This document shows positions 2,671 to 20,611 of a stretch of 24,103 nucleotides of DNA, piece by piece. How positions within the stretch are numbered: position 1 is the first letter of the stretch; each line of letters starts with the position of its first letter. The notes beneath the pieces are model-generated. The model was not told the origin of the DNA. It was given only the letters and a program-made list of their open reading frames with translations, and did no database searches. The stretch lies in IMG/VR virus record IMGVR_UViG_3300030116_005755, positions 25,828-49,930 of that record. One strand, 5' to 3'. The DNA comes from a virus. Position numbers and translations under genes: made by a program.

Positions 2671-2712
2671 TGTAAATAAACTATTTACATACGGTTCGGA
2701 TTAGGGCAGACT
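2671..2712 (+). promoter_or_regulatory. Inverted-repeat promoter, copy 1
   Basis: The 19-bp inverted repeat TGTAAATAAACTATTTACA (2671-2689; 8-bp arms, 3-bp centre) is followed by the shared promoter layout: -35 TTTACA (2684-2689, within the right arm), a 17-bp spacer and -10 CAGACT (2707-2712). An ATA begins seven bases after the -10 (2719), the predicted start site. About 28 bp including the repeat and its upstream T-rich flank are nearly identical to copy 2. Drives the gene at 2822. Confidence 0.75.
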
Positions 2713-2718
2713 GTCTGT

Positions 2719-2794
2719 ATAGGAGGGGTCGTTAATATCTACTAAGTGCTACTCAACGATGAGACCACAAACAGTAAACCTTTAGCGACCCTCC
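2719..2794 (+). promoter_or_regulatory. Structured 5' leader with long-range stem
   Basis: From the predicted start at 2719, the first bases of the transcript (GGAGGGGTCGTTAA, 2722-2735) can pair with TTAGCGACCCTCC (2782-2794). That forms about 13 base pairs with one bulged G and one G-U wobble, closing a loop of about 46 nt. The stem ends 27 bases before the gene's ATG and leaves its AGAGG ribosome site free. It also sequesters the 5'-terminal GGAGG. There is no U-tract, so it is not an intrinsic terminator. It may stabilise the RNA or bind a regulator. Confidence 0.5.
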
Positions 2795-2821
2795 CTCAAA
2801 GCAAAATTTAAAGAGGTAAAA

Positions 2822-3133
2822 ATGTCTAATAAAATTCAAGAAGATTTTTCAAGAACTACTTTCGAAGGAAATGTCATCCGTTGGGTAAGCAACGGTAATG
2901 TACCACCCAAAGATATTGTTGAAGGGTTTTTTGAAAGCGGTCTTATTACTGCAGTGCAAAAAGAACATTCTGATGCAACTAGAAGTAGAGAAACAATGCA
3001 GTTTCTTGAGCGATACAAAGAGGCTATGGCAAACCGCACTGAAGAACAGAAAGCTGCCGAAAGAGCAGAGGTACGTGCTGCTTTTGGAAATGACGCAACT
3101 GTTGTAAATATTATCACTGGCGAAGTGGTATAA
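2822..3133 (+). CDS. Hypothetical protein (103 aa), first gene of the inverted island
   Basis: Soluble protein beginning MSNKIQEDFSRTTFEGNVIR. The middle and C-terminal parts are highly charged and probably helical (about residues 53-90, rich in Glu, Arg and Ala). It ends in a short hydrophobic strand, VVNIITGEVV. No family is recognised. The ATG follows AAAGAGGTAAAA, the ribosome site repeated before several rightward genes here. It is expressed from inverted-repeat promoter copy 1 through a structured leader and lies opposite to the surrounding head genes. The regulated promoter and island location suit a host-takeover or anti-defence accessory gene, but nothing in the protein shows that. 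Confidence 0.75.
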   Translation: MSNKIQEDFSRTTFEGNVIRWVSNGNVPPKDIVEGFFESGLITAVQKEHSDATRSRETMQFLERYKEAMANRTEEQKAAERAEVRAAFGNDATVVNIITGEVV

Positions 3134-3148
3134 CTTTTTTCATTATTT

Positions 3149-3190
3149 TGTAAATAAACTATTTACATTAGTATTCTATTGAGGCAGAAT
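3149..3190 (+). promoter_or_regulatory. Inverted-repeat promoter, copy 2
   Basis: The same 19-bp inverted repeat as copy 1 (3149-3167) is followed by -35 TTTACA (3162-3167), a 17-bp spacer ending GAGG, and -10 CAGAAT (3185-3190). ATAAAGCAA starts at 3197, seven bases after the -10; copies at 18145 and 20539 have ATAAGCAA at the same offset. It gives the gene at 3221 its own promoter although the preceding gene is only about 90 bases upstream. Confidence 0.78.
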
Positions 3191-3220
3191 ATACTCATAA
3201 AGCAAACTAAAGAGGTAAAA

Positions 3221-3556
3221 ATGACAAACTTTGATAAAAATCTTTTTTCTTACGACAGCGGATACCTTTTCTATAACGGAAGTTATGAGGGTCAACCAAC
3301 TTACGGTGAAGTTTATGGTGCAGAAAAATGTCACCCTTCACGTGTAAATATGCCTGTGCCACTTTTTATCGCTAGATTTAAATATTCTGGCTCACCAGTA
3401 ACTAAAGCTAAATTCGTGAAACAGCTTTGCAAAGCCTTTACTGTAGAGGACTATGCAGAGGCAGTTAAGCATGACGCACCATTCCGAGTTTTGAAAGCAA
3501 ACGACCCAACTTGGTTTGCTAACCTGATGGATGCAGCCCTCGCGAAAGCTTCTTAA
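3221..3556 (+). CDS. Hypothetical protein (111 aa) in the island
   Basis: Begins MTNFDKNLFSYDSGYLFYNG and is aromatic-rich (Tyr, Phe, Trp). A central VPLFIARFKYSGSPVTKAKF segment is followed by a helical C-terminus. No family is recognised. The frame stays open upstream to 3179, but the inverted-repeat promoter's -10 and predicted start site fall inside that extension. The ATG at 3221 follows AAAGAGGTAAAA, so it is the supported start. A hairpin 8 bases after the stop probably ends the message. It is independently promoted, like its island neighbour. Confidence 0.75.
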   Translation: MTNFDKNLFSYDSGYLFYNGSYEGQPTYGEVYGAEKCHPSRVNMPVPLFIARFKYSGSPVTKAKFVKQLCKAFTVEDYAEAVKHDAPFRVLKANDPTWFANLMDAALAKAS

Positions 3557-3563
3557 ATTAGAA

Positions 3564-3586
3564 AGCCACCTCTAAATGGGGTGGCT
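3564..3586 (+). terminator. Probable hairpin terminator after the 111-aa gene
   Basis: AGCCACC (3564-3570) and GGTGGCT (3580-3586) form a perfect 7-bp GC-rich stem with a 9-base loop, immediately after the stop codon. The following bases, CTCTTCT, are only moderately T-rich, so termination may be partial. It separates the 111-aa gene from the membrane peptide and GIY-YIG pair. Confidence 0.5.
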
Positions 3587-3628
3587 CTCTTCTGGGGGAG
3601 ATCGTTTCATTAGCGTATGGAGAAACCA

Positions 3629-3745
3629 ATGAACTTAATTAAGCTTATCATACAATTCGTTTTATTTCTAGGATTTACTGTTTTTGTTTTTCACCTGCCC
3701 TTGGCGTGGGCTTACTTTGGAGGCATGATGAATGCAATCAATTAA
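3629..3745 (+). CDS. Small single-pass membrane peptide (38 aa)
   Basis: Reading frame starting MNLIKLIIQFVLFLGFTVFV and ending GGMMNAIN. Residues about 4-30 are almost wholly hydrophobic, enough for one membrane span or an uncleaved signal anchor. GGAG lies six bases before the ATG. An in-frame ATG at 3617 would add MEKP but has no good ribosome site. The 3' end overlaps the GIY-YIG gene by 14 bases in another frame, and GGAGG for that gene lies inside this one, which implies coupled translation. A holin-like, exclusion or anti-defence role is possible but unproven. Confidence 0.5.
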   Translation: MNLIKLIIQFVLFLGFTVFVFHLPLAWAYFGGMMNAIN

Positions 3746-4715
3746 GCGCAAACAAACAACAAGTATCCGCAAATCACCAATTTATAGTGCCAGTTACAAA
3801 CCAAGTCATCAGAAAGGTGGAATAGTTTCTATTAACCTGTGGCTTGATAATGCTGCAAACGGCAAAGGTGAAGCAATAGAAGACTTGTACAAAATTTTTC
3901 CGAAGGGACAATCTTGCGTTTATGTTCTAACCGACCCTAAAACAAAACCTCTTTATGTTGGAATGACCAGTAATTTAACACAGAGAATGGAAAATCATAA
4001 GTATACTAAGAGTTGGTTTGAAGAAGTCTCTAATGTTCTTGTTTACCCTTGTCATGAATCTTTAACAGCAAAAATAGAAAAAGAAACAATCGCTTGGCTC
4101 AATCCACCTTATAATAAATCAAACAAAAATAAAGAGGAAACATTCTTAGCACCAAATTTTCTAGAATTAGGTAATATGGATTTTCGTTTCTATGTGGAAC
4201 TACACAAACGTGATGGACACGAAAGCGATAGACCTTTCTTAGATGAAATCATGAATGACCATTTAGTGCGAAAGGCACAAGAAAAAATGCTTGCAGAACA
4301 TCAGGCAAAAGTTGAACGCTCAAAAATTTTTAGGAAAGAAAGTTTTGAAAATCGCCATAATGACCCTCTGCAACCGTACCATACAAAATACGGTGAAATT
4401 GATAAACCACGTAAGGCTCCTCCCACACTGCGTAATTACTTGATAAAATGCCGATATACAGCACCATACAATGATAACCAAATAAAATTTGCCCAAGCTA
4501 GGACTAAGAAGGAACTTGCCGAGCATGTCAAAAAATTCGGTAAATCAGAGTTTGTCCGCAAACATTTACATGAGAGACATCATGTTGCGTTTGCTGAAGG
4601 AAGATTAAATAAGTTCGATAACGAAATTGATCAGGAAATAAATTTACGATTACAAAATCTCCAAAGAGCAGGTTGGGACTTTGACATTATGCAAATTGTA
4701 AAGACTTATAGTTAA
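3732..4715 (+). CDS. GIY-YIG endonuclease-domain protein
   Basis: Protein of 327 aa. Residues about 60-128 form a GIY-YIG nuclease domain: CVYVLTD (first strand), LYVGMTSNLTQRMENH (second motif with catalytic Arg at about 85) and KIEKETIAWLNPPYN with the metal-binding Glu (116 or 118). The remaining ~200 residues are charged and helical, and their target-binding fold is not recognised. The start is eight bases after GGAGG. Its TAA overlaps the oppositely oriented portal stop by two bases, so the island is fused exactly to the end of the portal gene. It may be a homing or intron-less mobile nuclease, or act in DNA degradation. The whole inverted island could be a unit moved by this enzyme. Confidence 0.83.
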   Translation: MQSIKRKQTTSIRKSPIYSASYKPSHQKGGIVSINLWLDNAANGKGEAIEDLYKIFPKGQSCVYVLTDPKTKPLYVGMTSNLTQRMENHKYTKSWFEEVSNVLVYPCHESLTAKIEKETIAWLNPPYNKSNKNKEETFLAPNFLELGNMDFRFYVELHKRDGHESDRPFLDEIMNDHLVRKAQEKMLAEHQAKVERSKIFRKESFENRHNDPLQPYHTKYGEIDKPRKAPPTLRNYLIKCRYTAPYNDNQIKFAQARTKKELAEHVKKFGKSEFVRKHLHERHHVAFAEGRLNKFDNEIDQEINLRLQNLQRAGWDFDIMQIVKTYS

Positions 4716-6973
4716 TCTTTAGAGGAAAGTGGGTGTCCTGAGGGTAATAAATCAAGATCAAACTTACCACCTGAGAATCTTCCTGTTCGCACAGCCCTGA
4801 GAAAAGCGTTTACCCTAGCGTATGCCCATTGTTCTTCGCTCCTCACGTTTGGACGTACTGACTGTGGGTTTGTACGGTAAGCACCTACACCTCTACGGAA
4901 AACTGCTTCTAACATCCTCTGCGTTACACGTTTACCCTTTTTGTCACCGTGTTTTTCGTTATGGTCTTTAACTTTTTCTGCTAAACCTTTTTTGACTGCA
5001 CCCGAAACTGGCTTTTTAATTTCATTGAATGCTGCAGTAATAAATTCTTCTAGCTCAAGCTGCTTGTCTCTTTCCCTGTCTAACTCTGCAACTTTTCTCC
5101 GCGCCCATGATTGTCCTTCATCACCACCCCACAGAAGCCATGCAATCAAACCTGCACTTGGAAAGCCCTCTTCCCCACGATTAAAACCTTCTGCTTGTTT
5201 GTCGACTTCGTGCCTTGAAAAGAAGCTGTGCATTCGCCTTACACTCCTAGGGCTTAGCCTTTCCCTATTTTTTAAACTGGATGCTCTTTGTACTCCAACC
5301 ATTGTGCCACCACGATTGTACCGCTTTCTTAACTCCAAACCTCGGGTTGCATTAACAGCCATTGCTGCGGTTGGCTTTGTATCAACATCACTTTCCGCTT
5401 TATCTAAAAGATCATCATCTTCCTCTTTGCGCTTTGGCTTTTTACGCTTTGGCTTTTTTCTTTTATCGTCTTCATCATCATCATAGTATTTAGCATACTC
5501 ATCAATAGCTTCTTCATATGCCGCATGTGTTCGACAAGGCATATAAATCGTTCTACCATCTTCATCAATACTATGCGTTCCAACACAACCTATTTGCTCT
5601 GCCCTTTCTTCGGCTTCCGCTTGGGTTGTGAAGTGGTCTTTGCGGATTTCGGTTTTTTCTTCGTAGTCGTAACCTTCGTCTCCGTAGGCTTCTTTCGCAG
5701 CATCTTCTGGATCAATGCCTTTATCTTCTGAAACATCGTTGCCTCCTAATGGGAATAAATTAGCGGCAATAAATACTTCATCACCACCGTTTATAGGTTC
5801 TAATCCTAATCTTTCCCTTGCTTCATTTCTACTTATAATACCTTCACGGACTGCTGCTGTGACATTTTCATAGATACGTCTGCGCCTTTCAGTCATTGCA
5901 GGTATGGCTTCAATATCCAGTTGGATATTAATGTCATCCCCGAAACTTGGGGAAATCCATTCGTTCAAATCATTCGTTACCCTTTCAGCTAATGGAATGA
6001 TGGTTTCCTCATACAAAGCTAACCTTGCCTCTTGCACGTTTGCATAGGTTTGACTGTCGGGAATACCGATAAGCTGAGAAGGCACACCGAAACATAAAGC
6101 AATATCTTTTGCTGCCATATGTTTATTCTGTAAGAAATCCATGTCTTTTGGAGACATTGCCATTTCCTTCCAATCAAAGTCACCCTCAAGCAAAACTGGT
6201 CGACCTGCATTTTTAGTTCCAGTAAATCGCTGCTCTAAATCTTGAGATATTTGTTGCCGTTGACCGTCTGTTAACATCGTATTGTTGCCAAGATCGTCTT
6301 GCGGTTTAAAAATGATAGCTCCCGAAGGTCTTGCCCCATTTACCAACAACCCAATGTTGTGCTTCGCAATCATGTTGTGTTGATCTAAATCCACTGCTGC
6401 TGCCATCAAAGGGGAACAACCTAAGTAATCGTCAAGAGGATGCCACATCTTAAAATGTTTTACTTCAGACTGCCCTGTGGTTGGGTCTGCCTCATACTGC
6501 GCTAATACCTGACCATTTATTTTATATTTATAAGCCTTAGGAATAGAGTTGTCGCTAGGATCAATTTCTACTCGGTCTGGTCGCAGTAAGTATAGTTCTG
6601 TAGGTACCATGTTCACTGCGCTAGCCAAAGCATAGCTGTTTCCAGATAATAATAAAAATGAGTACAATGCTTGGAAATATTCAATCCCTGCTTGCGTTGG
6701 GTTTGGTCGTTTCAGCAAAGAAATTAATGGGTGACTCTCTAGCTCCTGATCGCCATTAAATACTTTAAGAGGTATCGCTGCAGCACCGTAAGCAATTTCA
6801 TTGACGCAACGGTAAACTATCGCATTTTCCTGATAACCTTCTTTTGCATAAGACTTGTAGTTGTCCCTACGGTTATGGTTATACATAGCCGCACCGCCCA
6901 TATAAATTTTCGGTGCTTCCTTAACTTGCAACGTATTAGTGAAAAGATTTTTGATATTATCAACGATGCCCAT
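4712..6973 (-). CDS. HK97-type portal protein with long C-terminal extension
   Basis: Dodecameric portal of the DNA-entry vertex. Residues about 1-415 are the classic core: YRCVNEIAYGAAAIPLKVF, HPLISLLKRPNP, AAKDIALCFGVPSQLIGI and YANVQEARLALYEETI. The next ~340 residues are unusual. A Cys-pair motif (GCVGTHSIDEDGRTIYMPC) lies near 462-480. A Lys/Asp-rich linker follows at about 497-525. A domain with SSLKNRERLSPRSVRRM and SAGLIAWLLWGG spans about 535-635. A terminal DUF5824-like domain (FRRGVGAYRTNP, EQWAYARVNAFL, LLPSGHP) completes it. The ATG shares its A with the large-terminase TAA and follows GGAG; a TTG five codons earlier is less likely. The extra domains may be internal head or ejection modules. 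Confidence 0.93.
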   Translation of the reverse strand: MGIVDNIKNLFTNTLQVKEAPKIYMGGAAMYNHNRRDNYKSYAKEGYQENAIVYRCVNEIAYGAAAIPLKVFNGDQELESHPLISLLKRPNPTQAGIEYFQALYSFLLLSGNSYALASAVNMVPTELYLLRPDRVEIDPSDNSIPKAYKYKINGQVLAQYEADPTTGQSEVKHFKMWHPLDDYLGCSPLMAAAVDLDQHNMIAKHNIGLLVNGARPSGAIIFKPQDDLGNNTMLTDGQRQQISQDLEQRFTGTKNAGRPVLLEGDFDWKEMAMSPKDMDFLQNKHMAAKDIALCFGVPSQLIGIPDSQTYANVQEARLALYEETIIPLAERVTNDLNEWISPSFGDDINIQLDIEAIPAMTERRRRIYENVTAAVREGIISRNEARERLGLEPINGGDEVFIAANLFPLGGNDVSEDKGIDPEDAAKEAYGDEGYDYEEKTEIRKDHFTTQAEAEERAEQIGCVGTHSIDEDGRTIYMPCRTHAAYEEAIDEYAKYYDDDEDDKRKKPKRKKPKRKEEDDDLLDKAESDVDTKPTAAMAVNATRGLELRKRYNRGGTMVGVQRASSLKNRERLSPRSVRRMHSFFSRHEVDKQAEGFNRGEEGFPSAGLIAWLLWGGDEGQSWARRKVAELDRERDKQLELEEFITAAFNEIKKPVSGAVKKGLAEKVKDHNEKHGDKKGKRVTQRMLEAVFRRGVGAYRTNPQSVRPNVRSEEQWAYARVNAFLRAVRTGRFSGGKFDLDLLPSGHPLSSKD

Positions 6974-8743: not shown

Positions 8744-8757
8744 CTGACCACCCTCTC

Positions 8758-9291
8758 TTATTTACCACTTGTTATCCATTGTAGCAATTCTTCTGCTAAT
8801 TGTACAGAATGGCTCGGTTCTGTCATATAGCGAACATCTACTTTGCCTTCAAACTCAGCCATAATGTTCTTTATTTTGGTAGCCCGACCGCGCAAAAAAG
8901 TTTCTGATTGAGTATCGTTTCTGGCGATATGTCTTGCGTGTTTTTCTTCTTCAGTAGCTGCCAATACTATTATTTTAAGATCATAGTGTTTATCTAACAT
9001 GAGAAGATTATCTTTTCCAAACAAGCGGTCTCCTTCAAAAATAATGTTTCTTTTCTTGTTAATTGCAAACTTTTGGAAATCTTTATTGACCGCCATAGAT
9101 AAACGGTCTGTCCCTAAAAATGTCCCTGAGTCATTGTATATACCTAACAACGCTGTATTTGTTTGTGAGTTTAAGTGACCTCGAAGCAAACCTTGTTTTA
9201 AATTATGTGTCGCTTTCATCTTCTTAAAAAAATGTTTCATCATTGTGGTCTTACCAGTTGCAGGTTCACCACCGACTGCTATCGCTTTCAT
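8758..9291 (-). CDS. P-loop kinase, likely 5-hydroxymethyluracil-DNA kinase
   Basis: Protein of 177 aa starting MKAIAVGGEPATGKTTMM; the Walker A loop (GEPATGKTT) is at residues 8-16. An acidic strand, IIFEGDRLFGK, follows, then a basic lid region HARHIARND. The ATG has GGAG six bases upstream and forms an ATGA overlap with the FAD gene, so the longer frame to 9369 is rejected. In thymidine-hypermodifying phages (ViI, M6 and relatives) a kinase of this class phosphorylates 5-hydroxymethyluracil in DNA, making the leaving group for amino-acid transfer. Adjacency to a transferase-like gene, an FAD enzyme and a TET/JBP oxygenase supports this. A nucleotide kinase with another substrate is the main alternative. 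Confidence 0.78.
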   Translation of the reverse strand: MKAIAVGGEPATGKTTMMKHFFKKMKATHNLKQGLLRGHLNSQTNTALLGIYNDSGTFLGTDRLSMAVNKDFQKFAINKKRNIIFEGDRLFGKDNLLMLDKHYDLKIIVLAATEEEKHARHIARNDTQSETFLRGRATKIKNIMAEFEGKVDVRYMTEPSHSVQLAEELLQWITSGK

Positions 9292-10109
9292 GCGTACTCC
9301 CCTAAAAACTTTTCTGCTAAATATGGATAAATCATTAAGCCCATTTTCCAACCTCCAGTCATTACCCAAACTCTAGAGCTGATTTTTTCTAGGTGACCCA
9401 TCTTTGGGCTGTTTGCGCTTGCACCGACATATGGACGCATTCCGAAAACTATCTGTGACGGATCGCTTAAACCGAAGTAATCATAGGCACGTGACAGGCT
9501 TTTTCCTATATAGTCCTGTTGCTTTGCCATGTAGTTTTTATGTTTGATAGCCACGCTATCGCCAAACCATATCCTGTCCTCGTCAAACTGAAACACTTTA
9601 AAATGTTTATGAGGTATTGGCATTAGCATCATTGGCTCTTTACGCCACTTGCCCTTAAATAACAGACCGTGACCAGAGAGTGAGTTCAGCCCCATTACTG
9701 GGACAAGCTTATTGCAAAACGCACCTGCACAGATAATGGTCGCACCTTTTTGAAAGCCATTGTTTTTTGTCAGTATACCATCGTCTGAAACTTCTATGGC
9801 TTTGTCTTTAATATATTCGACCAGAACATTTTTAGGTTGCACACGATAAGATTTAATTAAGTTCTTGTTTCTAAAATTTACTTCGTCAACCTTTACCGTG
9901 TCTTGTAAAATCCTTTTTGCTATATCGGCAATGTCTGTACCTAAACGCTCTGCCCATCCGAAACTAAAAATATTTTCACTGTATGGGGATGCAGCATAAC
10001 TGTTTTCTTCATCGAATATTCTTGTTTTGATATTATTTTTTCTAGCAAGCCTTTCTACAAAACTACCTGCTAAACCTGCACCAATTATATTAAGGGTTTC
10101 GGTAGACAA
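9288..10109 (-). CDS. FAD-dependent oxidoreductase/lyase of the DAO type, DNA hypermodification
   Basis: Protein of 273 aa with an N-terminal Rossmann dinucleotide motif LNIIGAGLAGS (about 6-16), a middle strand GATIICAGAFCNKLVPV and a C-terminal FAD-closing segment VWVMTGGWKMGLMIYP. This is the layout of glycine-oxidase/D-amino-acid-oxidase-like flavoproteins. Flavin-dependent lyases of thymidine hypermodification trim an amino acid attached to 5-methyluracil, and this gene sits exactly where one is expected. The start is a TTG eight bases after GGGAG; no useful ATG exists. It overlaps the transferase gene by 25 bases and the kinase by ATGA, so all three are translated together. The DNA-adduct substrate is inferred from context. 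Confidence 0.8.
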   Translation of the reverse strand: MSTETLNIIGAGLAGSFVERLARKNNIKTRIFDEENSYAASPYSENIFSFGWAERLGTDIADIAKRILQDTVKVDEVNFRNKNLIKSYRVQPKNVLVEYIKDKAIEVSDDGILTKNNGFQKGATIICAGAFCNKLVPVMGLNSLSGHGLLFKGKWRKEPMMLMPIPHKHFKVFQFDEDRIWFGDSVAIKHKNYMAKQQDYIGKSLSRAYDYFGLSDPSQIVFGMRPYVGASANSPKMGHLEKISSRVWVMTGGWKMGLMIYPYLAEKFLGEYA

Positions 10110-10873
10110 GGCTGCAACTCCCTTATATCTGGGTATTCGCTTTTTTCGATCCGCATATGCAATCGCTCTATGTCTTCACCTGCTTTGTAGTGTCCGTGAT
10201 AGTATGAATGATATTTACAGAGACAAGTTTCTATTTCCTGCATATTTATAGGTCGCGTATATTGTGGTGGTGCTAGTTCGTCCGTCACGCCACCTACTTC
10301 CAGTTGATGAATCACCTCTGCCATTGAACTGCGGTACAGATGATTACCTACATTTTTATGTTTCTGCTCATCTTCCCCTGCAACAAGCAACATACCTCTG
10401 ATCGGATATTCATAGGCTAAACGAAAATCGACGTTTTTAAAATTAAAGTTAAAACCCAAACAACAATTCAAAAGGTCAAGTATTTTCCACGCTGCCCATG
10501 GACCAATACCTTGAAATTTTTGAAGCTGCTTCAATGCAATGTTTGCATCCTGATGAACTTTGCTAAACATTGAATAGAAACCCTGATGGGCTTTGGCGTT
10601 TTGGTATAGAGCTTGCCAGAAAAATTCTGCATTGCGCTTATGTTTTCTTCTTTCGTTTCCGTAATCGACATCTTCAAAGGTTTTGTTATGCAGCATAAAC
10701 TCTAGCTCACCTATAGAGTTATAGATTACGCTCTTCACAGCTATCCATTTTGCCTTTACCTCTTCACCCCAATCCTTTTGGTCACAAACATTATTGATAA
10801 ATATATAATCGGGGTCTAAGTCACCGCTTGTAATGAGCACTCTACTAAAATCCGCAAAATTTAGTTTTGTCAT
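10085..10873 (-). CDS. Alpha-GPT-PPlase-like amino acid:5-hmU-DNA transferase
   Basis: Protein of 262 aa that looks like a DNA-glycosylase-fold enzyme. A helix-hairpin-helix-like motif, LQKFQGIGPWAAWKILDLL, lies at about 117-135, preceded by RRKHKRNAEFFWQALYQ. A C-terminal element ETCLCKYHSYYHGHYKAGED follows at about 215-234. These features match the alpha-glutamyl/putrescinyl-thymine pyrophosphorylase group (clade 2), which joins amino acids or amines to phosphorylated 5-hydroxymethyluracil in DNA. The ATG overlaps the amidotransferase-like stop (ATGA). It is the strongest sign that the oxidised base here is thymine rather than 5-methylcytosine. Recognition is from motif pattern only, without a search. 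Confidence 0.75.
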   Translation of the reverse strand: MTKLNFADFSRVLITSGDLDPDYIFINNVCDQKDWGEEVKAKWIAVKSVIYNSIGELEFMLHNKTFEDVDYGNERRKHKRNAEFFWQALYQNAKAHQGFYSMFSKVHQDANIALKQLQKFQGIGPWAAWKILDLLNCCLGFNFNFKNVDFRLAYEYPIRGMLLVAGEDEQKHKNVGNHLYRSSMAEVIHQLEVGGVTDELAPPQYTRPINMQEIETCLCKYHSYYHGHYKAGEDIERLHMRIEKSEYPDIRELQPCLPKPLI

Positions 10874-11478
10874 GGCTTGGTTTCCTCAAACCCTTCAACA
10901 AACTGATATGCCATGTATCCGTTTTTTTCTGTAATACGGTAATGATGACCTGCCTCACAAAGCTTTGGAAAAATTGTTATCTCTGACTCTGCAAAGCTAT
11001 CTTTTCTGGTCGTCACCCAACAACAGTTGTCATCATCTTCATAATCATACCAAAGGTGTTTGTAGCCATTGCGGAAAAAGCCAAGCTCTGCGCCTTCTCT
11101 CTCATTCAAGATCATTGCACAGGAAATCGGTTCGTTAGGGAATACTTGCAAAGGGTGCAAATCAAGATCAAAAGTATTTAAAATTGATTTAGTATGAACT
11201 TCTGCCTCATGCGCTATGGCATAATCTTCCCCTGACATTGGATAATTATATGCAAAATCACCCATATAATGTCGACAATGTGCAAGTATCAAAGGTGTAT
11301 CGACGTTTCCTAATTCAAAAAGATCGTTTTTCTCCGCATTTTTAACACTTCTGATTTTTTTATCTTCAAACCAACTGATTGTAGTCTCTTGGCTGTTTTC
11401 CATAGATTGCAGGAGAAGCTTACGAAACGTAATCATATCTACACCATTATGGTTAAAACCTGCAATGACTGCACACAT
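10870..11478 (-). CDS. Class-II glutamine amidotransferase-like (Ntn) protein of the modification cassette
   Basis: Protein of 202 aa beginning MCAVIAGF. Removal of Met would expose Cys2, the N-terminal nucleophile of class-II glutamine amidotransferases. Further family-like elements are LILAHCRHYMG (Arg69), NYP at 78-80 and AIAHEAEV at 87-94, which line up with the usual GHTRW ... NAHP ... HNG glutamine-binding series. The domain is shorter and divergent, with no synthetase domain attached. It may release ammonia from glutamine, or handle a glutamine-derived group, for the modified base. The ATG follows GGAAG and shares one base with the dioxygenase stop. The fold assignment is moderate and the role inferred. 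Confidence 0.6.
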   Translation of the reverse strand: MCAVIAGFNHNGVDMITFRKLLLQSMENSQETTISWFEDKKIRSVKNAEKNDLFELGNVDTPLILAHCRHYMGDFAYNYPMSGEDYAIAHEAEVHTKSILNTFDLDLHPLQVFPNEPISCAMILNEREGAELGFFRNGYKHLWYDYEDDDNCCWVTTRKDSFAESEITIFPKLCEAGHHYRITEKNGYMAYQFVEGFEETKP

Positions 11479-12419
11479 TAGTTTACTTCCGCGTTTAACC
11501 CTTTTAAATCTTTACGGCTTTTTACAAGTTGTAATTCATTTTCTGCGCTGCCGCATTTAAACATATTTTCTCTATAATAACTTACGATGGAAATACGCTC
11601 ATATGGTGCTTTGGCTTTTATCTCTAAATTACCATGCCACTCATGCACATTGAAAAAACAAACATCGGTATTTCTTACGTCAAATCCAATTCTGTATCTA
11701 GGCAGACAGGTAAAACCACCAGAAAATTGACCTGCTTGTAAGACTGCTAAATTACCTAAACCACCTTTGTAATCACCTTGATCGGTATGGATTGCTGTCC
11801 TAAAGTTTTTGTTTACCGTCACTGTAGTAAAAACAGTTTCACCGATGAGGAAATCTTTATTGGTTTGTTGCGCGACTGCATTCTGTGCCTCCCATCGTTC
11901 TGGGCAAGCTTCTTTAAATAAATCTGAAATCTTTTTAATATATGGATAAGCTTTTCTAAATTGGTCAAAATTTTTCTCTGTCCATGCAGTTTGACGGCAA
12001 TAAGGAAATCTTACTGTCCGATCAAAAAAACCTATGATGCCACTATCGACTGTTTTGGCTCGCATCGTTTTAGAAATATAGCCTTCCTTAGTTACCGTCT
12101 GGTATCTAGTTTTTGTCTTTGCGCTCACTTGCATATTTTTTTGAGCGACATCTTCAGTAATGTCGAACTCACCTGCTGCGTTTCCCCTGTTATTGGTTGG
12201 GGTCGCGGCATGCCGTAAAACACCATAAGCTTGTTTGCATAGTGCTGCAGGTATTACGTTTTTCCTAAACATAAAAAGTGGATTGCCCTCATCATCGTAT
12301 GCATCACAATCATAGTCGATAATGTGGTCTATTTCTTTTTCGTTTATAAGAGACCCTGCACGCTCTGACCATTCCTCAAAAGTCCCATACGCTTTCGCGT
12401 CATACTGTTTTATACTCAT
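11478..12419 (-). CDS. TET/JBP-family 2-oxoglutarate/Fe(II) dioxygenase
   Basis: Protein of 313 aa. The double-stranded beta-helix core carries the iron triad: FRTAIHTDQGD supplies His211 and Asp213, and NVHEWHGN the distal His (262 most likely). Arg275 in YERISIVSYYREN is the expected 2-oxoglutarate contact. The order HTDQGDY ... LGNLAVLQAG ... GGFTCLPRYR ... FFNVHEWHGN is typical of phage TET/JBP proteins, which hydroxylate the 5-methyl of thymine or 5-methylcytosine in DNA. With a kinase and transferase of 5-hmU chemistry next door and no cytosine methyltransferase, thymine is the likelier target. The ATG follows a GGCGG-type site and overlaps the ParB-like gene by 20 bases. Confidence 0.88.
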   Translation of the reverse strand: MSIKQYDAKAYGTFEEWSERAGSLINEKEIDHIIDYDCDAYDDEGNPLFMFRKNVIPAALCKQAYGVLRHAATPTNNRGNAAGEFDITEDVAQKNMQVSAKTKTRYQTVTKEGYISKTMRAKTVDSGIIGFFDRTVRFPYCRQTAWTEKNFDQFRKAYPYIKKISDLFKEACPERWEAQNAVAQQTNKDFLIGETVFTTVTVNKNFRTAIHTDQGDYKGGLGNLAVLQAGQFSGGFTCLPRYRIGFDVRNTDVCFFNVHEWHGNLEIKAKAPYERISIVSYYRENMFKCGSAENELQLVKSRKDLKGLNAEVN

Positions 12420-13017
12420 TTTCTACCGCCTGATAAACTGTATCTGTGACATTATCTATACCATACTTTTCTTGTAATTTGGTACACATTTCACGAAACT
12501 TTGGTTCAGTTTCTGTAGTTAAATAGAGTAAAAACATTTTTACGTGACTTTTCTCTAAACCTTCAAGTTCTTCGAAGTTAACCTCTTCTAATTCTTCAAC
12601 ATCATCTGCAAATTCTAAAAGCTCATCACCTGCTAATTTTGTAATTTCATCTAAATCAAAGCCAGTTAATTGTAGGTCGAAATCTAATTCTTTTAAGGCA
12701 GCAAATTCCTCTTTGAGCAACTCCTTGTCCCATTCAGCAAGCTCAGAAGTTTTGTTATCTACAATGCGGTAAGCTTTCTTTTGCGCCTCACTGAGCCCCT
12801 CTGCCGTGACTACTGGAACTTCTTTCATACCAAGTTGCATAGCCGCTAAATGTCTTGTGTGACCTGCTAAAATTATTTTGTTTTCATCAACGACGATCGG
12901 CTGCTGCCACCCATACTCTTGTAAACTTTCTGCAACCTTTTCGACGGCTGCTGAGTTATCACGTGGATTTGATTCATATGGGGTGATTGCTTCAATTTTA
13001 GTATTTTTAACTTTCAT
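12400..13017 (-). CDS. ParB/Srx-fold N-terminal domain protein heading the modification operon
   Basis: Protein of 205 aa. Residues 1-95 form a ParB-like domain: ITPYESNPRDN, VAESLQEYGWQQPIVVD, then IILAGHTRHLAAMQLG with the GHTRH box at about 52-56. An acidic linker (about 125-155) and a small C-terminal domain with FLLYLTTETEPKF follow. No methyltransferase is fused, and the HTH of chromosomal ParB is absent. Such proteins occur in phage TET/JBP and hypermodification neighbourhoods, where they may guide or license modification; nuclease or CTPase activity is also possible. It is the first gene after a strong leftward terminator, so transcription of the cassette probably begins just upstream. 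Confidence 0.8.
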   Translation of the reverse strand: MKVKNTKIEAITPYESNPRDNSAAVEKVAESLQEYGWQQPIVVDENKIILAGHTRHLAAMQLGMKEVPVVTAEGLSEAQKKAYRIVDNKTSELAEWDKELLKEEFAALKELDFDLQLTGFDLDEITKLAGDELLEFADDVEELEEVNFEELEGLEKSHVKMFLLYLTTETEPKFREMCTKLQEKYGIDNVTDTVYQAVENEYKTV

Positions 13018-13076
13018 AATGCAGCCTTTTTTTCTATATACACAATTTTCTAGACAGTTTTATTTGCGACTGCAAC

Positions 13077-13120: not shown

Positions 13121-13154
13121 AAAGTTGAAGCAGATAAGTAACCAAAAACGAACC

Positions 13155-14337: not shown

Positions 14338-14355
14338 TTCTTACCTCCATGATTT

Positions 14356-14419
14356 TATTGCTATTGCCTTTATTAAATTTTTTTGTCATAAAGGCAACAT
14401 CAGTATTACCTCTACTGAT
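14356..14419. promoter_or_regulatory. Operator-like region between the HTH gene and the initiator gene
   Basis: Contains TATTGCTA (14356-14363), the exact reverse complement of the TAGCAATA repeat found on the other side of the HTH gene. It also contains TTGCC words near 14364 and a perfect 7-7-7 inverted repeat ATCAGTA / TACTGAT (14399-14419). This gap lies just upstream of the initiator's GGAGGT site and is a likely place for control of replication genes by the small HTH protein. Confidence 0.4.
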
Positions 14420-14449
14420 ATTGCTTTGTGGCTGATTCTTGTAAAAGGG

Positions 14450-14635
14450 TCAGCCATTATTTTTTTCTAGGTATTCTTGTACCCTTGTGATAGTTCGCTT
14501 TGTCGGTTGCCCACCGCGCATAATCCTTGACAAACAAGCGTATGTCATACCAATTCTTTCTGCGACCACTGCTAATCTGCGGTCACTAAGTTTCTGACGT
14601 AATTCTTCGACACTCATTAATTTTTTTTGTTTCAT
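14450..14635 (-). CDS. Small HTH (XRE/Cro-like) regulator, 61 aa
   Basis: Begins MKQKKLMSVEELRQKLSDRR. A helix-turn-helix of the lambda-repressor type is visible as LAVVAERIGMTYACLSRIMRG (about 21-41), followed by PTKRTITRVQEYLEK. The size is that of Cro-type proteins. It sits at the divergence point between leftward replication genes and rightward recombination genes, with TAGCAATA motifs on both sides. It probably sets the balance between the two operons. No larger CI-like repressor or integrase is present, so lysogeny cannot be inferred from it. A hairpin GGCTGA/TCAGCC overlaps its stop codon (14430-14455). Confidence 0.75.
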   Translation of the reverse strand: MKQKKLMSVEELRQKLSDRRLAVVAERIGMTYACLSRIMRGGQPTKRTITRVQEYLEKNNG

Positions 14636-14667
14636 GATAAAAAAACCTGTTGCCTTTTTTTCTTATA

Positions 14668-14691
14668 TAGCAATAACTGTATTTAGCAATA
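14668..14691. promoter_or_regulatory. TAGCAATA direct repeats in the divergent control region
   Basis: TAGCAATA occurs at 14668-14675 and 14684-14691, 16 bases apart and so about one and a half helical turns, between the HTH gene and the first rightward gene. A third copy in reverse orientation lies at 14356-14363. A minus-strand TATATAAG and plus-strand AT-rich boxes show that promoters in both directions are likely here. The repeats are good operator candidates for the adjacent HTH protein. Confidence 0.45.
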
Positions 14692-14709
14692 TTTTAGAGA
14701 GAGGTAAAA

Positions 14710-14919
14710 ATGAAAAAGAAACCAGCTAATGCTATGATCGCTTTAAGTCTTGTTTATCAAGCTATACGCGAACACAATGAAGCCCTTGGAAAGCAATTTG
14801 ATAACGAAGAAATTGATCGCGAAGAATATCTTCGTGCTACGTTTCCACCGTTAGCAATTCCTACCATCCAGAAAAAAGTAGATGAATGGTATAGGACTGG
14901 TGTCTATGCTATTAAATAA
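14710..14919 (+). CDS. Hypothetical protein (69 aa), first gene of the rightward recombination operon
   Basis: Begins MKKKPANAMIALSLVYQAIR. It is helical and charged, ending PTIQKKVDEWYRTGVYAIK. No family is recognised. The ribosome site GAGAGGTAAAA is ideal. It is followed with a 14-base overlap by the Gp157-like gene, so it is the likely promoter-proximal member of the Gp157-ERF-SSB operon and is probably controlled from the TAGCAATA region upstream. Confidence 0.7.
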   Translation: MKKKPANAMIALSLVYQAIREHNEALGKQFDNEEIDREEYLRATFPPLAIPTIQKKVDEWYRTGVYAIK

Positions 14920-15388: not shown

Positions 15389-15390
15389 TT

Positions 15391-16505: not shown

Positions 16506-16507
16506 CT

Positions 16508-16921: not shown

Positions 16922-17345
16922 AGAACATATTAAAGCGGAAAAGGAAGTAACTAAAGTCCTTGAGCAAGCTTGGGATTGCAAGGTCGAACATCAGTATAAA
17001 TTTTCTAGCTATGATTGTGTGGCGCATAGAGATAATAAACCTTTAGCTTTTGTAGAGCTTAGAGTTTTAAATTATGCTTGGCCTGACCTTGACTCAATTA
17101 TGATTAGTTTAACAAAATTGATTGCAGGTAAGCAACAAACTGAACTCACTAAAATAAAAAGCTTGTTTGTTGTAAAATGGAAACAGTCAGACATGATCGG
17201 TTGGGTTGATGTAAATAAGCTCTCTGGCAAACCAGACTTTCGTGTTACTATGAAAGGGACTAACAGACTAAATGATAGTAACGAAATAGAGGTTTGCAGG
17301 TATATTCCTGTCTTAGATTTTAATGTCATACGAACTTGGAAATAA
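16899..17345 (+). CDS. Hypothetical protein (148 aa), possible PD-(D/E)XK-like nuclease
   Basis: Begins MIPQYLNEEHIKAEKEVTKV. The segment FSSYDCVAHRDNKPLAFVELRVLNY has the spacing of a restriction-nuclease-fold core (Asp ... Glu-x-basic), but the last position is Arg instead of Lys. Later strands (IKSLFVVKWKQ, DMIGWVDVN) fit an alpha/beta fold. No family is recognised with confidence. The start lies inside the DUF1367-like gene and has only a weak ribosome site, so translation is probably coupled. The neighbouring HNH and RusA genes make a nuclease role reasonable. Confidence 0.6.
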   Translation: MIPQYLNEEHIKAEKEVTKVLEQAWDCKVEHQYKFSSYDCVAHRDNKPLAFVELRVLNYAWPDLDSIMISLTKLIAGKQQTELTKIKSLFVVKWKQSDMIGWVDVNKLSGKPDFRVTMKGTNRLNDSNEIEVCRYIPVLDFNVIRTWK

Positions 17346-17463
17346 AGAGTTGCGTGAAATGACCGAAATGCTCAGACGCGAAGTTGACGTAAAAAACAAT
17401 CATGACCAACTTAGCGAAAAAACCCCCATTAGGTCTCAAAACGAAAACTCAAAAGAAAAATAA
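17323..17463 (+). CDS. Possible small protein (46 aa) bridging two genes
   Basis: Frame beginning MSYELGNKELREMTEMLRRE and ending QNENSKEK. It overlaps the preceding gene by 23 bases and the HNH gene by 62. It fills the only gap in this operon and its N-terminal half looks like a charged helix, but it lacks a clear ribosome site and overlaps a better gene heavily. It may be chance. Confidence 0.3.
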   Translation: MSYELGNKELREMTEMLRREVDVKNNHDQLSEKTPIRSQNENSKEK

Positions 17464-17734
17464 AAAACACCTAGATTATATTAGGAGTTTGCCATGTTGC
17501 GTCTGTAAAGCTTTCGGAGAGGTGCAGTTAAGCCCAACGACAGCCCATCATACAATTCATGACCGTTTTGGCACTCACAAACGCTCTGACAGTCTTGCTA
17601 TACCGCTTTGCGAAGGACATCATCAGGGATTATGGGATCAAAGTAAATTAGCTATACATAAACACCCGAACAAGTGGAAAGAAAAATACGGTTCTGATTA
17701 TAGCTTTATCGCGTCCATGAAAAGCTTACTATGA
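17402..17734 (+). CDS. HNH/Ref-like nuclease domain protein
   Basis: Protein of 110 aa with a CCVC pair (SLPCCVCKAFG), TTAHHTIHDRFGTHKRSD, then IPLCEGHHQGLWDQSKLAIHKH and WKEKYG. Paired cysteines and HH motifs define a zinc-supported HNH fold of the phage recombination-nuclease type (DUF968/Ref-like). It lies at the end of the rightward recombination operon and overlaps the 3' end of antisense rusA by 29 bases. The start has no strong ribosome site; the basic N-terminus (KTKTQKKNKK) may bind DNA. Confidence 0.75.
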   Translation: MTNLAKKPPLGLKTKTQKKNKKHLDYIRSLPCCVCKAFGEVQLSPTTAHHTIHDRFGTHKRSDSLAIPLCEGHHQGLWDQSKLAIHKHPNKWKEKYGSDYSFIASMKSLL

Positions 17735-18137
17735 TACTCGGTTTCATATCCCAAGTTTCGTAAATTTTTTTTGCCCAAATACTGTAAACCTGTGCATCAT
17801 CATTATAAACGATCTTATTACAACCGTCTAAAACTGCCTTTACTAAATTGTCTATGTCTGGTCGACTAGGACGGATTGCACCTGCTTGAGCTTGGTGTTT
17901 TTTCTTTTGTGACCAACTTTTGGGTATTGGCATGTACGCAATCATTTCTAAATGCACTGGTGATTTAGTCATTGCAGTCTTTTCTTTTGCCATTGCTACC
18001 CACGCACTCTGACCGACTACACGCTCATAATCTTTTGTTTTCTGAGGAGTATAGGTATGCCCTGATTTAGTGAATTTGGGGCGCGATTTAGGCACTGGAT
18101 TGCCATTAATCACAAATCTTACTTCTGTCTTTTCCAT
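17706..18137 (-). CDS. rusA: RusA-family Holliday junction resolvase
   Basis: Protein of 143 aa starting MEKTEVRFVINGNPVPKSRP. The family core RPDIDNLVKAVLDGCNKIVYNDDAQV carries the three catalytic Asp residues (in PDID-N, LDG and NDD). It resolves branched replication and recombination intermediates before packaging. The ATG at 18137 gives the normal RusA N-terminus; the frame runs on to 18188 but that stretch covers the inverted-repeat promoter. It is the only leftward gene among rightward ones, so its transcription probably starts in or beyond the repeat at 18145, which could serve both directions. Confidence 0.9.
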   Translation of the reverse strand: MEKTEVRFVINGNPVPKSRPKFTKSGHTYTPQKTKDYERVVGQSAWVAMAKEKTAMTKSPVHLEMIAYMPIPKSWSQKKKHQAQAGAIRPSRPDIDNLVKAVLDGCNKIVYNDDAQVYSIWAKKIYETWDMKPSIIVSFSWTR

Positions 18138-18144
18138 TTTCTTT

Positions 18145-18185
18145 GTAAATAAACTATTTACTTTCTTTATTAATTTTGATAGACT
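18145..18185 (+). promoter_or_regulatory. Inverted-repeat promoter, copy 3
   Basis: GTAAATA-AAC-TATTTAC (18145-18161) is the shared repeat less its outermost pair. It is followed by -35 TTTACT (18157-18162), a 17-bp spacer and -10 TAGACT (18180-18185). ATAAGCAA begins at 18192, seven bases after the -10. Drives the papain-like gene at 18216. The repeat also lies eight bases before the divergent rusA start, so a bound protein could control both. Confidence 0.75.
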
Positions 18186-18215
18186 CACCGTATAAGCAAT
18201 TCATTAGGAGGTAAC

Positions 18216-19046
18216 ATGAAGCTTAAATTAAATCAAATAGTTGACGAAAAAGGTAACACTAATCGTTATTGTGGACCAAGTGCTATCAGTGCTGTCACTG
18301 GTATGCCTACTGGTTCAGCCGCAAAGTTAATTAGGATCGTTGGTGGTCGTAAGACTATCAAAGGTGCTTATGTGGGTGAAGTTAAAAGTGCTTTGCATTA
18401 TTGCAACATTGTAGCTGAAGTCTCAAAGCCAACTACATTAGGTGTAAAGATGCCTGATGGTTCAGATCGCAAAAGTTGGTCACAAGAACCTAGAGTGACT
18501 TTGGCACAGTGGTTGAAGCACAGCAAAACTATCCGCACATCTGGGCGCATCTTTTTGATTGTTGCAGGTAATCACTATCAACTTGTTTCTGGTCGAAAGT
18601 TTACTTGTGGTCGTGTCAGAGACATAATCAGCATTCGCGCCAAAGGTGTAAAGCGTAGATCAAGAGTTGAGCGTGTCTTTGAACTTACTGCAAGAGAAGG
18701 TGGTGTGAAAATACCTGACATACTTTTTCAAAAGAAGCAGTTGACCGAAGAGCAAAAGCAAAATGCCAAATGGCGGTACCAAGCAAGGAAGCTTGCCAAG
18801 GAACACGGCATTACCATTGAGCTTGAGCAAATTGATTCATATGACAACATGCGCCAGTATTATGTTTCGATGCCCACAGAGTTTGAAGAGCTAGCGCACC
18901 ACCTTGACGATGGTCTTTACTGTGATCATTTGTGTTGGGGTTTTTCGGAAGTCCTTAGTAAGGTTGAAGAACAGATCGCCTTCATGACAGAAAACAAGGA
19001 GCACCCATGGCTGAAGAAGTACCGCCAAAACAAATCATCTACGTGA
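18216..19046 (+). CDS. Papain/C39-like cysteine peptidase-fold protein
   Basis: Protein of 276 aa. NRYCGPSAISAVTG near residues 16-29 places Cys19 at the start of a helix, as in papain and C39 peptidases. GRIFLIVAGNHYQLVSG supplies the expected His at about 120. The basic middle (KGVKRRSRVERVFE) and C-terminal half (EEQKQNAKWRYQARKLAKEH) suggest nucleic-acid contact. The ribosome site is TAGGAGGTAAC. It is expressed from inverted-repeat promoter copy 3. It could be a protease acting on host proteins or only a structural relative; the C-terminal domain is not recognised. The downstream small gene overlaps its 3' end. Confidence 0.6.
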   Translation: MKLKLNQIVDEKGNTNRYCGPSAISAVTGMPTGSAAKLIRIVGGRKTIKGAYVGEVKSALHYCNIVAEVSKPTTLGVKMPDGSDRKSWSQEPRVTLAQWLKHSKTIRTSGRIFLIVAGNHYQLVSGRKFTCGRVRDIISIRAKGVKRRSRVERVFELTAREGGVKIPDILFQKKQLTEEQKQNAKWRYQARKLAKEHGITIELEQIDSYDNMRQYYVSMPTEFEELAHHLDDGLYCDHLCWGFSEVLSKVEEQIAFMTENKEHPWLKKYRQNKSST

Positions 19047-19306
19047 CTCTTGGCGAAGACGTTGACCCTGCACTTGCAGGGTTGATGCTTCCTCATCTCG
19101 CAAACGCTTACCCGAAGTTTTTAATCCAATTTAATTTGGAAGTTAAATTTTCCGCAAGGAACGGACATGGAAAAAATATCTTAGCCGTGATTGTGGAAGA
19201 TGAAACCAAAGGCTTAGTTGATGATGACTGTGAGCTTTACATTATAGATGTGAATGCCGCCCTATTAAGCGAACCTGAATTTGGTGAGCAAGGTACAGTG
19301 CATTAA
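19007..19306 (+). CDS. Hypothetical protein (99 aa)
   Basis: Begins MAEEVPPKQIIYVTLGEDVD and ends PEFGEQGTVH. It is acidic, with alternating strands (KFLIQFNLEVKF, ILAVIVED, LYIIDVNAA) that suggest a small alpha/beta or beta-rich fold. No family is recognised. The ATG follows AGGAG by five bases and overlaps the papain-like gene by 40, so it is co-expressed with it. Partnership with that gene is inferred from the overlap. Confidence 0.7.
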   Translation: MAEEVPPKQIIYVTLGEDVDPALAGLMLPHLANAYPKFLIQFNLEVKFSARNGHGKNILAVIVEDETKGLVDDDCELYIIDVNAALLSEPEFGEQGTVH

Positions 19307-19334
19307 TTATTTTGCTATTATCGCAAAAAAGTGT

Positions 19335-19363
19335 TTGTCTTTTTTAATTAATAAAACCATAAT
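19335..19363 (+). promoter_or_regulatory. Probable promoter for the DUF932 gene
   Basis: TTGTCT (19335-19340), a 17-bp spacer and CATAAT (19358-19363) lie in an AT-rich 87-base gap before the DUF932 gene. The -10 differs from consensus by one base. Unlike the four shared promoters it has no inverted repeat, so this gene is probably regulated differently. Confidence 0.5.
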
Positions 19364-19393
19364 CATAATTACAAAAAAGCAATGGAGGTAAAT

Positions 19394-20263
19394 ATGCTAG
19401 ATTTTTGTAACTTCGCAAACAAAGCCAATGATTGGAATTTTCCAGTTGAGGAAAAGCCATTGACCGTAGAGGGTGTTGGTAAAGTTGAGGGCAAAAAAGC
19501 CCTAGTCAGAACTGACAACAATACGATTGTTGGTGTTCATTCCGATAACTACAAAGTGTTGAACCATGATGATGTGGTTAACGCTCAATACGATGCCGTA
19601 AAGCAAGCAAACCTATCAAGTGACTTTGAGTTTAAAGTTACCTGTCTTGAAGGTGGTAAGAAATTATCCATCAAGGTCATGTTTCCTGATTTGACTATAG
19701 AGCCTATGGTTGGTGACATAGTAAATTATGAATGGAATGCTTTTAACAGCTATGACGGTATGTGGGCTTATCAGGTTGAGGCACAAGGTAATAGGTTAGC
19801 TTGTAAGAACGGAATGGTGTCCCCAACAATGCTAAACAGAATTTGGGCAAAGCACACTTCCTCAATCAATGTTGTTGGCACTGCCGAGCATATGCTGAAG
19901 TCCGTAGAAGTATTCAAGAACCATCGTGAAGAATGGAAGCATTACAATACAGTACGATGCGACTCAGGTAGAGTTGAGGACTTCTTCAAAGGCAATGTTG
20001 TAAATTACGGCAAAGGCTTGAAGACCGTTGAAGATAATTACAACAAGAAACAATTATCTGCTTTGGTCAATCATTATGGTGATTACTCTCGGTCTTTAGG
20101 AAATACAAAGTGGGCTGTTTATAATGCTCTTACACATTGGTCTACTCATTGTGAGGATACCGCAGTACCAGAAATCACTGCACGTTACAGACAAGACCGC
20201 GTAGTGAAGGCAATGAAAAGCAAAGCTTGGGATGATATCCATAAGCATAGGTTCGCAGCTTAA
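19394..20263 (+). CDS. DUF932-family phage/plasmid protein
   Basis: Protein of 289 aa beginning MLDFCNFANKANDWNFPVEE. Family features are ALVRTDNNTIVGVHSDNYKV near the N-terminus, the central NSYDGMWAYQVEAQGNRLACKNGMV and an Asn/His/Trp-rich C-terminus (NTKWAVYNALTHWSTH). DUF932 proteins are frequent on phages and plasmids next to recombination genes; their function is unknown. The ATG at 19394 follows GGAGGTAAAT; an in-frame ATG at 19382 lies before that site and is rejected. It is transcribed alone or with the small HTH gene after it. Confidence 0.83.
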   Translation: MLDFCNFANKANDWNFPVEEKPLTVEGVGKVEGKKALVRTDNNTIVGVHSDNYKVLNHDDVVNAQYDAVKQANLSSDFEFKVTCLEGGKKLSIKVMFPDLTIEPMVGDIVNYEWNAFNSYDGMWAYQVEAQGNRLACKNGMVSPTMLNRIWAKHTSSINVVGTAEHMLKSVEVFKNHREEWKHYNTVRCDSGRVEDFFKGNVVNYGKGLKTVEDNYNKKQLSALVNHYGDYSRSLGNTKWAVYNALTHWSTHCEDTAVPEITARYRQDRVVKAMKSKAWDDIHKHRFAA

Positions 20264-20270
20264 CCAGAGG

Positions 20271-20304
20271 GGAGGAAGGGTTGCTGCTTAAATAGTGGCA
20301 ACCC
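20271..20304 (+). promoter_or_regulatory. Hairpin-bridged ribosome binding site
   Basis: GGAGG (20271-20275) lies 38 bases before the ATG at 20314, too far to act directly, and no nearer site exists. Between them GGGTTGC (20278-20284) and GCAACCC (20298-20304) form a perfect 7-bp stem. Folding removes 27 bases and leaves 11 bases plus the stem between GGAGG and the ATG, as described for T4 gene 38. No T-tract follows, so it is not an ordinary terminator. Confidence 0.45.
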
Positions 20305-20313
20305 AAAATTACG

Positions 20314-20523
20314 ATGAAAAAGAAATTATCAAGAGACGAAGTGAGAGACATCCGCGTAGCCTTAATGAAGGACAACGCAAGGATAGAGCGTGACAGAGTA
20401 TTCGGTGATCAGAAAACCGCTATGAATGCTAAACGTGCAGAACACCTTCGACCTAGCAACCTAGCAGCCCGATACAAAGTGACCGTTGGTCAAATATATT
20501 ACGCAGCTAAAAATATTATTTAA
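20314..20523 (+). CDS. Small basic HTH-like protein (69 aa)
   Basis: Begins MKKKLSRDEVRDIRVALMKD. The C-terminal part, PSNLAARYKVTVGQIYYAAKN, looks like a homeodomain-type helix-turn-helix as in phage HNH-associated or sigma-like DNA-binding modules. It is strongly basic overall. The start lacks an adjacent ribosome site; a hairpin-bridged GGAGG may supply one. It ends just before inverted-repeat promoter copy 4. It might regulate that promoter, but any link is by position only. Confidence 0.65.
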   Translation: MKKKLSRDEVRDIRVALMKDNARIERDRVFGDQKTAMNAKRAEHLRPSNLAARYKVTVGQIYYAAKNII

Positions 20524-20538
20524 TTTTTTTCACTTTTT

Positions 20539-20580
20539 TGTAAATAAACTATTTACATTATATTTTTTCTGTGGCATACT
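20539..20580 (+). promoter_or_regulatory. Inverted-repeat promoter, copy 4
   Basis: The same perfect 19-bp inverted repeat (20539-20557) is followed by -35 TTTACA (20552-20557), a 17-bp spacer ending GTGG and -10 CATACT (20575-20580). ATAAGCAA begins at 20587, seven bases after the -10. It drives the long run of small genes from 20612. Confidence 0.78.
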
Positions 20581-20611
20581 CAGATCATAAGCAATATCAG
20601 AGGTGATTAAA

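Follow-up and report, generated by a model that had tools for sequence, protein, structure and literature searches.

A dispersed putative operator-promoter unit in a phage group and its most likely regulator, a 63-residue Fis-like protein

Four putative operator-promoter units in one phage record

The stretch analyzed here (the window) is 24,103 bases long and forms the end of a 49,930-bp virus record, IMG/VR IMGVR_UViG_3300030116_005755 (G000:25828-49930). The element under study is an inverted repeat, TGTAAATAAACTATTTAC(A), a putative operator that occurs four times in the whole record, on the + strand every time. Exact copies start at 2671, 3149, and 20539, and the third copy (18144-18162) ends in T and so loses its outer pair, the operator being a 19-bp dyad with 8 or 7 arm pairs. 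Its last six bases, within the right arm, are also the -35 hexamer. At all four copies TTTACA/T as -35 was followed by exactly 17 bp, a -10 hexamer of the form YAKAMT, and ATA seven bases further. The first unit (P1, 2671-2712, + strand) consists of the operator at 2671-2689, the 17-bp spacer, and the -10 hexamer CAGACT at 2707-2712, with a transcript start predicted from the spacing at 2719. P2 (3149-3190, + strand) has its operator at 3149-3167, CAGAAT at 3185-3190, and a predicted start at 3197. P3 (18144-18185, + strand), which is divergent from the RusA gene, has TAGACT at 18180-18185 and a predicted start at 18192. P4 (20539-20580, + strand) has its operator at 20539-20557, CATACT at 20575-20580, and a predicted start at 20587, and heads a gene run that contains the gene of a 63-residue helix-turn-helix (HTH) protein, HTH21799 (21799-21990, + strand).

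These four matching promoters had been claimed in an earlier reading of the sequence (the original prediction). All were present with the hexamers and spacings it described at 4 of 4 sites, the third copy starting at 18144 and not at the predicted 18145, which omits the outer pair. Its start motif, given as mostly ATAAGCAA, was exact at P3 and P4 only, P2 having ATAAAGCAA and P1 ATAGGAGG. The further claim that such spacing was not due to chance agreed with the counts. Counting both strands, the record contained 5 matches to TTTACW-N17-YAKAMT and 4 to TTTACW-N17-YAKAMT-N6-ATA, the latter being the four copies themselves; every one of the four sites had YAKAMT at spacing 17, and the sole additional match, in one site, was at spacing 22. 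The search of the full phage genome that had been proposed as a check found no fifth place within 3 arm mismatches, so the copies were not common at random. Within the window, 7 matches with at most 3 mismatches were found (both palindrome readings counted) versus an expectation of 0.05, and none of 100 shuffles reached 7; the palindrome with a free centre was absent from 200 first-order Markov surrogates. A chance repeat was rejected on the mismatch scan, the whole-record scan, and the shuffle and surrogate counts.

Conservation of the unit in related phages

In viral contigs, the exact 18-mer gave 22 stretches and a looser composite 34, and the relatives so reached had terminase (76-79%) and portal (about 68%) in common with the window. 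Thirteen of the 22 stretches lay in this phage group, as judged by promoter context or homology, and 9 lay outside it, so the 18-mer alone is no proof of membership. G001 and G002 had four composite sites each, and G001, G002, and G019 carried 4-5 operators per record; in G001 the centres differed (AAC, CCC, ATC, GTG) and the arms were constant. Since a match was the reason for picking G001-G015, presence counts among them test nothing; a backwards control pattern gave 1 match in these 15 records. Further relatives were fetched by their XRE protein or RusA instead of the operator. Variant operators were AGTAAATAAACTATTTACA in G019, AGTAAATTAAAGCTTTACT in G016 and G021, and TGTAAAATAATAGTTTACA in G017, the last two forms coming from a scan whose criteria had been loosened post hoc. 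The strict form TGTAAA-N7-TTTACA was missing from 5 of 12 records (G016, G020, G021, G026, G027), of which G016 and G021 have the AGTAAA form and G027 is a 5.8-kb record. More distant phages retained [AT]GTAAA-N7-TT[TG]AC[AT], and in G321-G325 the right arm was TTGACA, the consensus -35.

In annotated records, some sites lay inside the MuF-portal island, some were divergent from RusA (G000, G001, G002, G019, and near copies), and some followed DUF932 and preceded genes including the HTH gene. We compared 19 sites from 6 records, excluding near copies and the forms of G016, G017, and G021. Mean between-record identity was high in the arms (0.91 and 0.96) and lower in the centre (0.58), the -10 hexamer (0.51), the upstream stretch (0.37), and the spacer (0.31). 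The search that found the sites relied on the arms, which makes the arm values partly circular; this does not apply to the low spacer values. The stretch upstream of the dyad was T-rich. What had been claimed for the window, like promoters with a dyad over the -35 and one regulon in two regions, thus held in related records, where the dyad was conserved in place and its surroundings had diverged.

Among the sequences searched, the switch was restricted to this group. In ten records from outside it that matched the palindrome or the composite, no HTH21799 relative was detected (E 0.001), and both positive controls were found. The phage collection searched held no HTH21799 match, and its nearest named terminases were 48-49% identical; one of them belongs to Roseobacter phage CRP-6, which (whole), like CRP-901 (part), had no operator within 3 mismatches. 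L033 and L026 had single operator-like promoters, on contigs with no HTH21799 relative detected, which may be chance or another system.

We also considered a host transcription factor as the binder of the dyad, which seems quite improbable. The passages cited report that enterobacterial TyrR reads TGTAAA-N6-TTTACA, with an identical half-site (PMC4374768). However, all four sites here have a spacer of 7, not 6, and it is a phage protein with which the dyad co-varies (see below). The host search called for in the original prediction was made in the class of a Leisingera genome (L240), where the composite was found in 0 of 289 bacterial genomes and the palindrome alone in 1 of 115, although the true host may lie outside this sample. 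Searching by terminase for a prophage or host gave 73 loci. The best one (61%) lay in a metagenome-assembled genome labelled Flavobacteriales, on a contig of 12.5 kb that held no exact operator and a single match with one mismatch and no -10.

HTH21799 as candidate regulator and its proposed mode of action

Four proteins encoded at 14450, 20314, 21799, and 21987 had been put forward as regulators, and presence and co-variation singled out HTH21799. The best 80 of 501 DUF932 loci, among them some short fragments and several near copies, were surveyed with a relaxed operator. An operator accompanied a strong HTH21799 relative at 15 of 15 loci, a weak one at 1 of 14, and was found at 0 of 51 loci with none; the backwards control gave 0 of 80. 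L350, L353, L356, and the truncated L286 carried RusA and DUF932 but no HTH gene, and no operator was found there. The nearest same-strand upstream operator lay 410-2043 bp from the HTH gene in 20 of 20 HTH-bearing records. HTH and operator were both present in eight distant records read at length (G321-G328), where XRE was not detected. A backwards control gave 0 in 10 records scanned, which were mostly chosen for having the operator.

The operator also diverged together with HTH21799. Operator distances, taken over all columns except the centre three, were compared with protein distances after near copies had been removed; only sites with a ribosome site and an ATG in range were used, which kept 3 of the window's 4. 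With n = 14, operator divergence correlated with that of HTH (r = 0.47, 1/5000) versus 0.03 for RusA and 0.12 for DUF932, and with n = 11 the values were 0.49 (3/5000) for HTH and 0.05 for TerL. The HTH correlation was still 0.49 (3/5000) given TerL, and 0.37 (21/5000) given DUF932 (n = 15). By eye, SRQRLNG in the second HTH helix (G017, G326, G327, G328) went with TGTAAA operators whose inner bases are unlike the window's, and YQIAKR proteins (G016, G021) went with AGTAAA...TTTACT operators. The terminase types of G017 and G326/G327 differ, which indicates that the HTH gene and the operator move as a pair between backbones.

The other candidates fared less well. The protein at 20314 had no match among the predicted proteins of 10 other records compared. 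The XRE protein (14450-14635, - strand) is of a typical phage repressor type, matching phrog_18104 (2e-12), and its segment TYAxLxR(I/V) was constant across 10 aligned sequences. We nevertheless did not favour it as operator binder and regard a regulatory role at these sites as very improbable. Its own flanks lack the dyad, and there its nearest relatives hold AAGGCAA-N7-TTGCCTT; it went undetected in 8 of 8 distant operator records (fragments), when a 10-sequence model finds XRE in 12 of 14 others; and its divergence does not track the operator's (r = -0.26, n = 7 records). Inverted TTGCC/GGCAA elements surround the XRE gene at 14340-14720, the perfect form in the nearest relatives being a candidate XRE operator. 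A second HTH protein (21987-22262, + strand, 91 aa) is a weak relative of HTH21799, from which it was not separated, and may be a partner or a rival. The regulator could be this neighbour or another, unrecognised phage protein, or the sites could be recombination joints and promoters only incidentally; taken together, we hold these options to be unlikely. The gene at 21987 adjoins that of HTH21799, but a second HTH relative was not detected in G016, G017, or G021.

The model of HTH21799 had a long helix followed by an HTH (predicted local distance difference test, pLDDT, 86; predicted template modelling score, pTM, 0.64), and its best PDB matches were Fis (Z 7.0-7.4) and the NtrC4 DNA-binding domain (Z 7.2), values under 8 that are below the tool's secure level and can reflect a common arrangement. 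On balance, we think that the repeat is probably the operator of a dispersed phage regulon, whose cognate regulator is most likely the Fis-like HTH21799, proposed to act by Cro-like negative feedback. Each unit would consist of a T-rich upstream stretch, the 19-bp dyad, 17 bp, the -10 hexamer, a purine start seven bases on, a short leader, a ribosome site, and an ATG about 70 bp past the operator start. With the right arm doubling as the -35, such a unit may serve as a ready-made controlled promoter. A Fis-like dimer of HTH21799 on the dyad would cover the -35 and, if the HTH gene is co-transcribed from P4 as predicted, would turn off its own operon and the other cassettes after an early burst. 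In this reading HTH21799 would act as a repressor, of its own promoter and of those of the other cassettes.

Several observations weigh against this reading, besides the low Z values. Foldseek with the HTH21799 model found nothing at E 0.001 or better, and Pfam HTH_8 scored HTH21799 at 19.9 versus a cut-off of 22, the G001 homologue reaching 23.7. The surveyed loci were not independent, with near copies among them and the HTH-bearing ones coming from one phage group, and shared family history inflates the count of 15 of 15. DUF932 alone gave 0.26 (n = 15) before HTH was taken into account, and in the 7 records with both XRE and TerL the HTH correlation of 0.40 was not significant (468/5000), with TerL at -0.03. 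A sigma-70 scan (plain consensus, at least 9 of 12 matches) passed P2 (3162) and P4 (20552) and not P1 or P3, so that measured against E. coli promoters the -10 hexamers are weak; its totals in two regions were 4 sites versus 2.5 in shuffles and 11 versus 6.6. Weak -10 hexamers and a dyad centre near -39 would also suit an activator.

The same operator and HTH protein could indeed serve activation, with a dimer over the -35 that recruits RNA polymerase in the manner of Mor at the middle promoter of Mu. The dyad bound by Mor is centred at -43.5, where a -35 would otherwise stand, and is accompanied by an UP element (PMC4390567). The exact register from dyad to -10, the weakness of the -10 hexamers (two of four promoters pass the sigma-70 scan), and the T-rich upstream stretch all fit such a mode. 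However, a usable -35 lies inside the arm, which would be needless if an activator replaced it, and the dyad is centred near -39, not at -41 to -44. We regard activation as rather unlikely overall. The TTGACA right arm of G321-G325 suggests direct reading by RNA polymerase and favours repression, to which, given the rest of the reading, we lean slightly.

Genes and cassettes behind the promoters, and known systems

The first gene behind P1 (2822-3133, + strand, 103 aa) had no family match. The one behind P2 (3221-3556, + strand, 111 aa) had weak relatives in G001 (E 7e-5) and G019 (6e-5), each in the early region and preceded by an operator, and the one behind P3 (18216-19046, + strand, 276 aa) had relatives behind the operator in the same two records. 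The P3 gene had been called papain-like, which was not upheld by Pfam (no match over the cut-off), and its structure model was poor (pLDDT 62); it carries a CGPSA motif, and only 4 named phage records (Roseobacter CRP-901, Erythrobacter XM05, and two Brevundimonas phages) have such a gene. The first gene behind P4 (20612-21010, + strand, 132 aa) had a relative (39.5% over 129 aa, E 9e-29) in G016, where it lies in the MuF-portal island as the second gene after an operator. One gene family stands behind the dyad in both settings, the early region in one phage and the MuF-portal island in another, as expected of the regulon across two regions that had been claimed.

The first gene started 68-76 bp after the operator's first base in 18 of 22 rows. 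The outliers were P1 (151, structured leader), G002:24081 (165, where the script chose a later frame and an ATG is present at 74), and two rows at 58 (start of the longest frame); two further sites gave no gene by the script. The P1 leader (2719-2800, + strand) is predicted to form a long hairpin not found in the other three leaders, with a fold of -26.6 kcal/mol versus -18.0 (standard deviation 3.2) for shuffled sequences, equalled by 4 of 200 shuffles. A search with this leader found one other stretch only, and in L025 it is kept before the P2 gene. Most sites had a purine-TA(A)GCAA motif in the start region; it also occurs in dyad-free leaders near the XRE gene and therefore marks leaders, not the operator. 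In the group's leaders (T)A(A)GCAA stands just 5' of the ribosome site, e.g. at 3197-3210, 18192-18203, and 14690-14720 of the window. Rfam gave no match and ARAGORN no tRNA in the window.

Two close relatives, L015 and L011, aligned with the window to the P1 operator and resumed at the P2 operator, the two alignments overlapping by about 37 bp, which indicates that these relatives lack one unit of operator, leader, and gene. In L025 the junction falls in the leader repeat instead. Cassette differences exactly at operator copies are what recombination joints would give, but joints do not require dyad symmetry or a fixed -10 spacing. Returning to the regulon reading, we tentatively propose that operator, promoter, and leader form a standard socket in an uncultured marine phage group, in which incoming genes would fall under a Fis-like regulator of 60-odd residues; cassettes may be lost, gained, and exchanged between head-gene island and early region via the repeats, and regulator and sockets may co-evolve in specificity. 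Elsewhere in the window, a likely DNA base hypermodification island (8758-13017, - strand) encodes a Tet_JBP oxygenase (9e-21), an ADDT amino acid:DNA transferase (7.5e-13), an FAD oxidoreductase DAO (2e-7), and ParB_N (7e-8), with a P-loop kinase match below the cut-off, and the MuF-portal island has a GIY-YIG endonuclease (3732-4715, + strand, 2.6e-6).

For phages without a close named relative in the collection searched, these results give a defined regulon, a candidate regulator, and a predicted binding site. If the reading is true, co-regulated genes of such phages can be predicted from sequence alone, and accessory genes entering a phage already under control would be explained. The co-variation of operator and regulator also offers natural variants for studying site choice by a very small HTH protein. 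Literature searches, as far as listings and abstract openings go, gave no description of such a regulon in marine or rose phages or of a Fis-like phage repressor.

Known systems share parts of this arrangement, as far as the cited passages go. The half-site TGTAAA/TTTACA is that of the TyrR box, but there the spacer is 6 and the G and C of the arms lie 14 bp apart, versus N7 at 4 of 4 sites here (PMC4374768). Unlike HTH21799, TyrR is a large amino-acid-sensing host protein. Its HTH is of the Fis type. The start-associated sequences (SAS) and extended SAS (ESAS) of Cluster K mycobacteriophages are repeats before a subset of small genes, some with upstream inverted repeats (PMC3203893), and resemble the present repeats in standing ahead of a small-gene subset across a phage group. 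SAS, however, is an asymmetric 13-bp sequence associated with the starts of translation, and the arms of ESAS measure 17 bp around a variable spacer, in contrast to a 19-bp dyad overlapping a promoter; by inspection, with no separate search made, the SAS repeat GGGATAGGAGCCC was absent from the leaders. Mu Pm with Mor is similar in that a phage-encoded dimer, here a proposed one, sits on a dyad in the -35 region with an UP-like stretch upstream (PMC4390567), but Pm is one promoter without a normal -35, whereas here the arm is a -35-like hexamer and there are several promoters. In phage P1, one repressor, C1, acts through 22 operators spread over the genome (PMC8546580), and several like operators are similarly dispersed over one phage genome here (4 in 49,930 bp, in two regions). 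Unlike the asymmetric 17-bp operator of C1, the present operator is a 19-bp dyad locked to the -35, and its proposed regulator is a Fis-like protein of 63 residues.

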